Assembly (NCBI GenBank): GCA_026395795.1 | Contig: JAPLYB010000033.1 | Span: 1-49,547, forward strand | DNA length: 49,547 nucleotides | Source: Candidatus Pacearchaeota archaeon | GTDB lineage: Archaea > Nanobdellota > Nanobdellia > Pacearchaeales > UBA284 | Direction of reading: 5' to 3' | Made by a program: the position numbers and the translations under genes | Notes under the pieces: generated by a model | What the model saw: only the letters and a program-made list of their open reading frames with translations | Database searches by the model: none | Told to the model about the DNA's origin: nothing | In this document: positions 2,554 to 41,850 of the stretch, piece by piece | Layout of the letters: each line of letters starts with the position of its first letter | Position numbering within the stretch: the stretch's first letter is position 1

Positions 2554-2647
2554 ACTTATAAATCTTTCTTTTACCCCAGCACAAATTCTAAGGCATACAT
2601 GTTCGGTATAAAATATTAATAACCCCTTGCTGTTACTATATCATAAC

Positions 2648-2699
2648 AGCGAAAATCAAGAGATTCTCGGTGTGCAGAAAATCTATGATTTTCTAGCAT
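2648..2699. repeat. Double-hairpin element, copy A
   Basis: GCGAAAATC-AAGA-GATTCTC-GGTGTGC-AGAAAATC-TAT-GATTTTCT-A-GCAT; ends about 22 nt before the 2722 ATG. Confidence 0.65.
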
Positions 2700-6751: not shown

Positions 6752-6770
6752 ATATGAGCCTGCTGTGATT
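6752..6770. repeat. 19-bp direct repeat of the tRNA-Ile 3' end (ATATGAGCCTGCTGTGATT)
   Basis: Identical to 6857-6875. Confidence 0.85.
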
Positions 6771-6826
6771 CCCTAAAAAATCTGTGATTTTTGGGGTGCC
6801 GAAAATTCTCCTGAATTTTCAAGCAT
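6771..6826. repeat. Double-hairpin element, copy B
   Basis: CCCT-A-AAAAATC-TGT-GATTTTT-GGGGTGC-C-GAAAATT-CTCCTG-AATTTTC-AA-GCAT. Confidence 0.65.
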
Positions 6827-10422: not shown

Positions 10423-10443
10423 ACGCTCGAAAAACGAGGGCGT
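10423..10443. repeat. Short single hairpin with ACGC/GCGT closing quartet (possible half-unit D)
   Basis: ACGC-TCG-AAAAA-CGA-GG-GCGT. Confidence 0.35.
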
Positions 10444-12104: not shown

Positions 12105-12166
12105 ATGCTTAAAATCTCCGATTTTGGGCATGTTGAAAAAGAAAATTAACTTTCTTTTTCAAGCAT
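12105..12166. repeat. Double-hairpin element, copy E
   Basis: ATGC-TT-AAAATC-TCC-GATTTT-GG-GCATG-TTGAAAAAGAAA-ATTAAC-TTTCTTTTTCAA-GCAT. Confidence 0.7.
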
Positions 12167-16354: not shown

Positions 16355-16427
16355 TGTGCTCAAGAATTGCGATTTTTCCATACTTATTTAATTCTTGGCA
16401 TGACGAAAATCTAAGATTTTCTAGCAT
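16355..16427. repeat. Double-hairpin element, copy F (long first loop)
   Basis: GTGC-T-CAAGAATT-21 nt-AATTCTTG-GCATG-AC-GAAAATC-TAA-GATTTTC-TA-GCAT. Confidence 0.6.
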
Positions 16428-24562: not shown

Positions 24563-24616
24563 ATGCTAGAAAATCATAGATTTTCTGCACGCCGAAAATG
24601 GTTCATTTTCGAGCGT
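24563..24616. repeat. Double-hairpin element, copy G
   Basis: ATGC-T-AGAAAATC-ATA-GATTTTCT-GCACGC-CGAAAATG-GTT-CATTTTCG-A-GCGT. Confidence 0.8.
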
Positions 24617-25483: not shown

Positions 25484-25538
25484 ATGCTAAAAAACAGAAA
25501 TTTTTTGGCATGCAGAAAAAGTCCTCTTTTTCAAGCAT
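25484..25538. repeat. Double-hairpin element, copy H
   Basis: ATGC-T-AAAAAA-CAGAAA-TTTTTT-G-GCATGC-A-GAAAAAG-TCCT-CTTTTTC-AA-GCAT. Confidence 0.75.
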
Positions 25539-31069: not shown

Positions 31070-31125
31070 ATGCTAGAAAACACAATTGTTTTCTGCATGC
31101 CAAAAATCTCATGATTTTTGAGCAT
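31070..31125. repeat. Double-hairpin element, copy I
   Basis: ATGC-T-AGAAAACA-CAAT-TGTTTTCT-GCATGC-CAAAAATC-TCAT-GATTTTTG-A-GCAT. Confidence 0.8.
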
Positions 31126-34345: not shown

Positions 34346-34374
34346 GTGCTAAAAAATCAGGATGTTTTTGGCAC
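34346..34374. repeat. Single hairpin, half-unit J
   Basis: GTGC-T-AAAAA...TTTTT-G-GCAC. Confidence 0.5.
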
Positions 34375-34381
34375 CACGAAA

Positions 34382-34906
34382 TTACACAATAATTTCTTGG
34401 TAATCAAACCTTTTTAAATCATTCTCGATATCTTCATAAGATTTTCCGCACAACATCCCACCAGCTAAGAAAAGTTCATGCGTAACCTCTGCTAAACAAA
34501 ATTCTGGCATTTCAAACTCCTCTTTTTCTTGCTCATTATCAAATTCAAAATCAACTAACACAAGACCTTTTAACTCTCCTTGAAAAACATCTATTTCAGC
34601 AACTTTATCCTTGAACTTATAAAAATATCTTATCTTACTGACTATTTTTCCATCCAACTTTTGAAATTCCTTAAATTCTTCTTCAAGCAGTTTGATTGTC
34701 TGTTCCATTTGTTTGGAAGCATCATCTGTAACCGGCTCTTTCTTTGTCACTTCAAATTTGTTACCATCTTTTCTAATCCTTAAAGTAGGGTGTTCTCTTA
34801 TTTTAGGAATGTAAATGTCAATTATCTCTTTATTTTCACAATTATGCAGTCCATCAGGCACAAACTTTAGAAGATATGTTTTTTCAAGTTCTATCATAGA
34901 CACCAC
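34382..34906 (-). CDS. CYTH domain protein
   Basis: ELEKTYLLKFVPDGL...EIIDIYIP...LRIRKDGNKFEVTKKEP...AEIDVFQGELKGLVLVDFEF. Confidence 0.8.
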   Translation of the reverse strand: MVSMIELEKTYLLKFVPDGLHNCENKEIIDIYIPKIREHPTLRIRKDGNKFEVTKKEPVTDDASKQMEQTIKLLEEEFKEFQKLDGKIVSKIRYFYKFKDKVAEIDVFQGELKGLVLVDFEFDNEQEKEEFEMPEFCLAEVTHELFLAGGMLCGKSYEDIENDLKRFDYQEIIV

Positions 34907-35360: not shown

Positions 35361-35436
35361 TCTGTTTTACTTAACTTAAGCAGAAGAAGGATACTAATTA
35401 GAAACTTTGAATAATATTAAAATCGGAAATTTTTAA

Positions 35437-35545
35437 ACACGCTCAAAAATCAGAAGATGCTCAAAATTATCAAATTTTGGGCACACAGAAAATCTCGGAT
35501 TTTCTAGTGTTTTTGGCGTGTCAAAAACCCGGAGGTTTTTAGCAT
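35437..35545 (+). repeat. Nested double-hairpin element, copy K, in the rps28e leader
   Basis: Outer ACACGC-T-CAAAAA / TTTTTG-GCGTGT encloses a complete inner unit (35457-35510); followed by AAAAACC-CGGA-GGTTTTT-AGCATG. Confidence 0.8.
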
Positions 35546-35846
35546 GGCTGAAAAAAAACAATATCAAAAACAAGGCCAACAAGGCCAGCAGCAAGACAGA
35601 AGAGGAGAAAGAGGAGCTGGACAAGAAGCTGTTCCAGCAGTAGTTGAAGAAATTCTTGGAAGAACAGGCTTTAGAGGAGAATTAACACAGGTTATAGTAA
35701 AAGTTCAAGATGGTTTTGACAAAGGCAAAACAATTAGAAGAAACGTAAAAGGCCCAGTAAGATTAAGAGATACTTTAATGTTAAGGGAAACTCAAATTGA
35801 AGCGAGAAAGATAAGAACAAAAATCATGAAAGGGGCATTCACATAA
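35544..35846 (+). CDS. rps28e: Ribosomal protein S28e with Q-rich N-terminal extension
   Basis: [57 protein letters not shown]. Confidence 0.93.
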
Positions 35847-36978: not shown

Positions 36979-37052
36979 ATTAGATAAATTTAATGTACTT
37001 CATTAGGGTTCACAGATATTTAATGTATTGTCTTTATCATTGATTGTTATAG

Positions 37053-37124
37053 TCAACGATTTAGATATTTCCCCATTTTGTCGTTGAGTATCTAGGGAAA
37101 GACTTATGTCTTTCACTATAGATA
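37053..37124. other. Two adjacent hairpins, possible ncRNA/leader/terminator
   Basis: TCAACGA...TCGTTGA then TATCTA-GG-GAAAGAC-TTAT-GTCTTTC-...-TAGATA. Confidence 0.45.
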
Positions 37125-41409: not shown

Positions 41410-41652
41410 CTAGTATTTCTTCTTTATTCTGCCAGGTTTAAACTCAACATTTGGTCTTCTCTTGGCATTTGTTTTTATTTTGGTTTTAATTGAAGTTCTT
41501 CTCCATGATCTCTTGACTCTAGTTAAGTAAGAAGGATGAACTCTTTTTCCTTTTCCACAAGCTTTAGGAATAACCCAGAATGGGGCCCACTTTGTTCTTC
41601 TGCCTTGCTTTCCGAGTCTTAATTTGCTTGTTATGTGTTTTTTCTTTGCCAT
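41410..41652 (-). CDS. rpl39e: Ribosomal protein L39e, extended
   Basis: MAKKKHITSKLRLGKQGRRTKWAPFWVIPKACGKG...RVKRSWRRTSIK. Confidence 0.8.
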   Translation of the reverse strand: MAKKKHITSKLRLGKQGRRTKWAPFWVIPKACGKGKRVHPSYLTRVKRSWRRTSIKTKIKTNAKRRPNVEFKPGRIKKKY

Positions 41653-41656
41653 ATTT

Positions 41657-41705
41657 AAAAACCCCGGGGTTTTTGACACGCCAAAAATCTTCTGATTTTT
41701 TAGCG
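41657..41705 (-). repeat. Double-hairpin element, copy L, in the rpl39e leader
   Basis: Minus strand: ACGC-T-AAAAAATC-AGAA-GATTTTT-G-GCGTGTC-AAAAACCCC-GGGGTTTTT; about 4 nt from ATG. Confidence 0.75.
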
Positions 41706-41850
41706 TTTTTCAGTTTATAATCTTTATAATGTAAGATTTAATTTATTTTTATTGATGTTTTAAATTGATAACAATAAATGTTTGGTTTAACTTATAAATT
41801 GCCCATATTTTAATTGACGTTTCTATTTTTTTATACGAATTTAAACTTAT

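Follow-up and report, generated by a model that had tools for sequence, protein, structure and literature searches.

What are the short double hairpins that recur between the genes of this archaeal contig, keeping one folded plan while the sequences of their stems differ? The locus that raises the question, at positions 31070–31125, lies in a stretch of 49,547 nucleotides, analysed at full length and called the window below, which is contig 35 of a 957-kb draft archaeal genome in 44 contigs (G000). Sequenced relatives of this genome include Pacearchaeota, which places it within that DPANN group. The original prediction described a dispersed family of intergenic double hairpins. The answer reached here, to which a probability of about 0.78 is given, is a single family of short, non-autonomous, hairpin-ended mobile elements of DPANN archaea that has been partly domesticated. 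The observation itself is confirmed and proved wider in extent than first described; the interpretation given in the original prediction is partly supported, and it was incomplete: mobility, nesting, insertion between A and T, a class of units carrying a Shine-Dalgarno motif at start codons, and the spread through DPANN archaea went unseen in it. DPANN genomes are among the smallest of archaea, yet they hold up to about 100 units in less than 1 Mb.

Architecture and Distribution of the Units

Seven units went into a covariance model (R1): A, B, G, H, I and K of the window, together with a unit of locus L002. The match of these six window units is therefore built in; E, F and L stayed outside the model. 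R1 finds 10 unit copies in the window (Table 1). A, B, E, F, G, H, I, K and L score 42–77 bits (rough E-values, 1e-15 to 1e-7) over a noise level of 13 bits, with a clear gap below J at 26 bits, and the shared double-hairpin plan proposed for these nine sites is borne out. Of two proposed half-units, J (34346–34374) is matched, but weakly, and D (10423–10443) gives no R1 match and is to be dropped. Two sites depart from the plan as described: hairpin 1 of A is degenerate, and the left root of B is CCC/GGG in place of ATGC. K, read at first as one unit at 35437–35545, is actually two, one inside the other. L is a unit on the minus strand as predicted, but it extends beyond the predicted 41657–41705, and on that strand its 3′ end coincides with the start codon of a gene for a ribosomal protein. 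This eL39-like gene has no Pfam match and was named by inspection. Unit B lies 32 nt beyond the 3′ end of tRNA-Ile, and the right root of unit G is ACGC/GCGT, a compensated change.

Table 1. Double-hairpin units and associated features of the window (a caret marks an insertion point)
Feature	Positions	Strand	Remarks
Unit A	2646–2699	+	between divergent genes; hairpin 1 degenerate; R1 58.0 bits; used to build R1
Unit B	6770–6826	+	left root CCC/GGG; R1 57.9 bits; used to build R1
Unit E	12105–12166	+	R1 43.7 bits; outside R1 build
Unit F	16356–16427	-	one hairpin with long loop; R1 43.7 bits; outside R1 build
Unit G	24563–24616	+	canonical; R1 76.6 bits; used to build R1
Unit H	25484–25538	+	R1 67.0 bits; used to build R1
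Unit I (site of original prediction)	31070–31125	+	R1 70.7 bits; used to build R1
Unit J	34346–34401	-	weak; single good hairpin; R1 26.1 bits, E 6e-4
Unit K, outer	35439–35545 (start approximate)	+	start-codon unit of eS28; GGAGG in last hairpin; 3′ end GC-ATG
Unit K, inner	35457–35510	+	within hairpin 1 of outer K at GA^TTTTT; R1 68.8 bits
Ribosomal protein S28e gene	35544–35846	+	PF01200, E 1.8e-25; ATG begins on last two bases of outer K
74-bp palindromic repeat, distinct from units	37048–37121	-	empty in window; paralogues L062 and L055 hold units
eL39-like ribosomal protein gene	41410–41652	-	ATG abuts unit L; orthologs in 12 relatives
Unit L	41651–41706	-	start-codon unit of eL39-like gene; R1 51 bits, both strands

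A unit is about 51–59 nt long and is composed of a 3-bp root, an unpaired base, an A-rich/T-rich stem, a loop, the returning stem and root, and then the mirror image of the whole. The two ends are mirror images (YNN...NNR) with one hairpin each, so that both look alike when each is read on its own 5′ strand. The single unpaired base between root and stem occurs on the outer arms only. As the original prediction held, the left arm has T (129 of 150 aligned rows) and the right arm has A (125 of 150). In some other DPANN lineages the bulge pair is A/T instead of T/A, and therefore its position is conserved more than its base.

The stems vary and stay complementary, also as first noticed. Among 148 distinct aligned rows, 93% of the pair cells are standard, and all 22 of 22 pairs change on both sides. 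Cells changed on both sides number 618, against 177 ± 21 in shuffled alignments and at most 66 with the partner slid, well above the background covariation that would have told against the prediction; because the alignment was fitted to R1 and includes both strands of many units, the exact figures are inflated, a bias which the slid controls share. In each stem four A-T pairs are nearly invariant, and the neighbouring pairs, like the roots, change freely in a compensating manner (ATGC/GCAT, ACGC/GCGT, ATCC/GGAT, ATCA/TGAT and GTCC/GGAC). Dispersed and covarying in this way, the units are, as had been argued, neither terminators nor decayed simple repeats.

The whole G000 genome gives 153 R1 strand-matches at no fewer than 80 places, which is a floor, as 150 of 1340 first-look candidates were scored. 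Direct reading of 394 kb found 97 distinct or overlapping places; 78 clusters reach at least 28 bits. Beyond this genome the family has a patchy distribution among DPANN archaea, all represented by draft assemblies. A unit is present in 16 of 55 relatives, leaving 39 without a match (E ≤ 1e-4), and in 76 of 279 genomes of a phylum sample, or 62 of 207 genera, leaving 203 genomes without a match (E ≤ 1e-6; strict filters, 20 candidates scored per genome); such absences do not fit the AT-rich background that the original prediction had named as its possible undoing. Named genomes with units belong to Pacearchaeota, Woesearchaeota, Aenigmatarchaeota, Nanohalarchaeota and other DPANN groups. Pattern matches in bacteria scored below 28 bits with R1 and were set aside as chance, and IMG/VR viral contigs gave no match to a pattern that is narrow. 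The Rfam search suggested at the outset yielded two tRNAs only in the window and no family at gathering threshold for the units (best sub-threshold score at site I, 21.9 against a threshold of 55.5), and the literature searched had nothing on DPANN palindromic elements or repeats of such kind.

Several settings of the units recur. In several genomes they are embedded in larger nested palindromes: repeats of about 200 bp with units at several positions occur in one bin, CAIVED (L094, L110, L138, L156, L160, L165), and similar ones in DeMMO3_27 (L103, L148, L123), with outer stems that are variable yet paired. Other units stand directly against the 5′ end of a tRNA-Lys gene, or some 30 nt beyond the 3′ end of a tRNA (L055:17029 and L067:8016-8020; also window 6770, L060:16714 and L067:7856). 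At L132:2105-2230 and L163:7460-7573 a unit sits in a second copy of the 16S rRNA 3′ tail (anti-Shine-Dalgarno), just past the real one. Apart from the units, an RT-16 RNA (RF03019) adjoins a reverse-transcriptase gene at L062:18132-18360 and G000:C39:17200-17808.

Insertion, Nesting and Composite Copying

The units are mobile. Where a repeat, a tRNA gene or an orthologous gene is filled in one copy and empty in another, the difference is a clean insert of 51–59 nt, mostly placed between A and T (A^T). In genome G203, an outer unit that is empty at L196 contains a 55-nt inner unit at L195, and the flanks are identical over more than 60 bases on either side. Tandem tRNA-Ser copies at L104 differ by a unit whose position is unique (TGGTA^TTGCG), and the joined flanks are identical at 56 of 56 positions; a second insert at L104 is offset. 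L104 alone excludes a 2-bp AT duplication, and several other inserts fit either A^T without duplication or a 2-bp duplication. Target dinucleotides other than A^T are found in the CAIVED bin. Most events fit A^T insertion, and the A-T pair on the outside of each root thus comes from the target. A gene of the Prismane/CODH family holds a unit in frame, and its ortholog in genome G008 is without it.

The 74-bp palindromic repeat (TATAGTGAAAGACATAAGTCTTTCCC...TCGTTGACTATA), present in at least three copies (that of the window, L062:1832-1963 and L055:19237-19529), is a landing site for units. Empty in the window (site 37076), it has one 59-nt insert in L062, and in L055 this insert and two further ones, of 107 and 51 nt; the 59- and 51-nt inserts were recovered by an exact-match script, and the 107-nt insert rests on printed sequences. 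Degenerate copies of tRNA genes are another setting: in two Woesearchaeota (L104:3475-3650, L131:1560-1916) a degenerate second tRNA-Ser(TGA) has a unit at the boundary of D-arm and anticodon-arm, beside an intact copy, and at L131 the intact gene sits within the broken one, between inverted repeats.

Units also lie within units and are copied together. Deletion of the inner K leaves an outer K with the layout of unit L. Window 35435–35546 corresponds to L061 13513–13625 at 96% identity, and L070 7133–7239 to L058 8446–8552 at 86%; as these composite arrays stand at unrelated sites, it seems to be the outer ends that determine what moves. In the reading preferred here, a unit enters between A and T without duplication, taking the outer A-T pair of a 4-bp root from the target. 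A resident unit offers further A^T sites at its centre (GCATGC) and in its stem (GA^TTT), so that units nest and form multi-hairpin arrays, and entire arrays move together.

Units at Start Codons

In 394 kb, 13 units end on the first two bases (A and T) of a start codon ATG. Exact coincidences of this kind were expected 0.77 times, and the maximum in 2000 permutations was 5. The last hairpin contains a Shine-Dalgarno motif in 10 of these 13 units against 17% of all genes, as called, start-codon genes included, by a home-made gene caller that gives the motif a small bonus. The genes concerned include uS8, uL29, eS28, the eL39-like gene, gyrase A, RFC small subunit and phosphomannomutase. The gyrase A gene that starts at a unit bears an intein (L057:12729-16712).

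In 12 relatives, the eS28 and eL39-like genes start directly after an A-rich leader without a unit, and uS8 lacks one in relatives with readable upstream sequence; therefore the unit arrived in this lineage and now serves as leader. The old motif of uS8 (AAGGAG) is displaced upstream of the unit in G000. The same arrangement occurs in other DPANN genomes, with the motif in 6 of 7 and 3 of 4 cases, and a distant eL39-like gene with a start-codon unit is found at L141. For a nucleotidyltransferase/HEPN-like pair, the unit stands at the start codon of the second gene in one genome and within that gene in another (L140:5423-5481, L146:7678-7735). In predicted folds the Shine-Dalgarno motif falls within the loop and 3′ arm, and the AUG lies in the root. 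The best reading is that units have been partly domesticated as portable ribosome-binding hairpins: a subset inserted at A^TG of start codons has retained or evolved the motif and become the leader of housekeeping genes, where the hairpin may affect translation.

Candidate Enzymes, Rival Explanations and Known Systems

Three features, namely covariation, a fixed bulge and mirror-image symmetry, suggest an enzyme that reads each end as a folded single strand, in the manner of HUH/Y1 enzymes at REPs and at the ends of IS200/IS605; such an enzyme would presumably act in trans. HUH single-strand enzymes (IS200/IS605, REP/RAYT) use bulged hairpins and clean insertion. The remark in the original prediction that no RAYT is visible calls for refinement: of 23 genomes tested, none passes the RAYT cut-off (NF047646), but the genome does have three IS200-type Y1 genes. 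The three Y1 loci (L001, L002 and L003, in C3, C23 and C43 of G000) share an end repeat of their own (AGCTCTCGCTAAGCGAAAGC...), distinct from the units, and none is flanked by unit ends, the loci being bounded by other repeats. Y1_Tnp is absent from G004, which has 56 matches, and from G007, G014, G055–G059, G069 and G075; a link to RAYT/Y1 was rejected, Y1 genes being missing from many element-rich genomes and found in element-free ones. Reverse transcriptase was likewise rejected (11 of 23 genomes, no pattern). No autonomous copy, that is, solo half-hairpins flanking a gene, was seen in 394 kb, and the only gene family recurring beside units is that of orthologous DEAD-box helicases in three related genomes.

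With no transposase found, copying could be driven by the host, through template switching or recombination mediated by hairpins; palindromes, nested ones included, are the dominant form, and an A...T is common to donor and target at the junctions. Template switching should, however, give variable ends, and the units have identical exact ends at unrelated sites and in distant phyla, which leaves this explanation unlikely. Slightly more doubtful is a Helitron- or IS91-like rolling circle, in which units would be the minimal ends of an HUH replicative transposon inserting at A^T. Inserts often begin with TC or TG, and duplication-free A^T insertion is a Helitron hallmark (PMC4778049), whereas the mirror-image hairpins at both ends of a unit differ from the one hairpin near the 3′ end, without inverted ends, of Helitrons. 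No Y2/Rep-helicase element came to light, the protein models searched being those of Y1, RAYT and reverse transcriptase. A small chance, lower again, is given to true REPINs, in which archaeal REP doublets would owe their movement to a RAYT (Y1 transposase), present in the genome or recently lost. The inverted doublet of bulged hairpins, insertion without target duplication, arrays with singletons, patchy spread and the three Y1 genes would all suit them, but the distribution of Y1_Tnp, the RAYT result, the other repeats that end the Y1 loci and the lack of a GTAG tag in units tell against them.

Explanations without mobility fare far worse. Stationary regulatory elements under selection (terminators, processing sites or 5′ UTR switches) would account for a mostly intergenic location, strong covariation, the start-codon class and the units some 30 nt beyond tRNA 3′ ends, but units are also found within coding genes, tRNA copies and other units, and in co-directional, divergent and convergent gaps alike (58/8/4); their absence at orthologous sites of relatives and the pairs of empty and filled sites make this reading very improbable. 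Chance hairpins in AT-rich intergenic DNA can practically be discarded. The genome is AT-rich, and a half-hairpin scan of the window, a weak one, gave only 6 against 2.4 in shuffles; E-values down to 1e-15, covariation, conserved bulges and zero matches in most equally AT-rich relatives have already refuted this explanation.

The preferred reading thus remains a family of mobile, hairpin-ended elements. More tentative, and held at somewhat below even odds, is the wider proposal of a pan-DPANN mobile DNA recognised by its structure and moved by an undescribed single-strand transposase, the hairpin end acting as a portable translation-initiation cassette that enters the start codons of housekeeping genes and puts a Shine-Dalgarno hairpin in place of their own leaders. 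Confirmation of the family would mean a class of mobile elements whose enzyme remains to be hunted, a clear case of DNA structure, not sequence, conserved by covariation, and natural experiments in which ribosomal-protein genes swap their leader for a transposon-borne ribosome-binding hairpin.

The units work like a REPIN, an IS200/IS605 derivative or a Helitron, and are filed as none of them because no Y1, RAYT or reverse transcriptase tracks them and no gene is flanked by them. IS200/IS605 ends are hairpins with an unpaired T, inserted without target duplication. Duplication-free insertion is shared by the units (unambiguous at L104, compatible elsewhere), but co-occurrence with a Y1 transposase is not, and their ends are mirror images with no linked tnpA, in contrast to the ends of IS200/IS605, which are not mirror images and carry tnpA. 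Helitrons insert between A and T without duplication and have a hairpin near an end (PMC4778049), and most unit events, with exceptions in one genome, also fall at A^T; Helitrons, however, are eukaryotic, with kilobase-sized autonomous forms and ends of 5′-TC...CTRR-3′ with one 3′ hairpin, which the archaeal units do not have. Archaeal MITEs (reviewed in PMC10969869) are likewise small non-autonomous repeats, but they are bounded by long terminal inverted repeats and duplicate their target, instead of having two separate hairpins and no duplication. Rickettsia palindromic elements and CGTC REPs (PMC3733652, PMC10969869) are palindromes that enter genes in frame and for which no dedicated transposase is known; the units differ in sequence, two-hairpin plan and A^T insertion. 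The nearest analogy, agreeing with the original prediction, is REP/BIME/REPIN with RAYT in bacteria (PMC3116915, PMC3733652): short, bulged, inverted-pair palindromes, mainly intergenic, clustered or single, patchy and without coding capacity. Dispersed imperfect palindromes in inverted pairs describe the units as well. In place of the GTAG/CGTC tag of those elements, however, the units have roots that are RYGC/GCRY and variable; they are archaeal and without RAYT, carry a root and an unpaired base at both ends, take their outer A-T from the target, and include a class at start codons that supplies its own Shine-Dalgarno motif.
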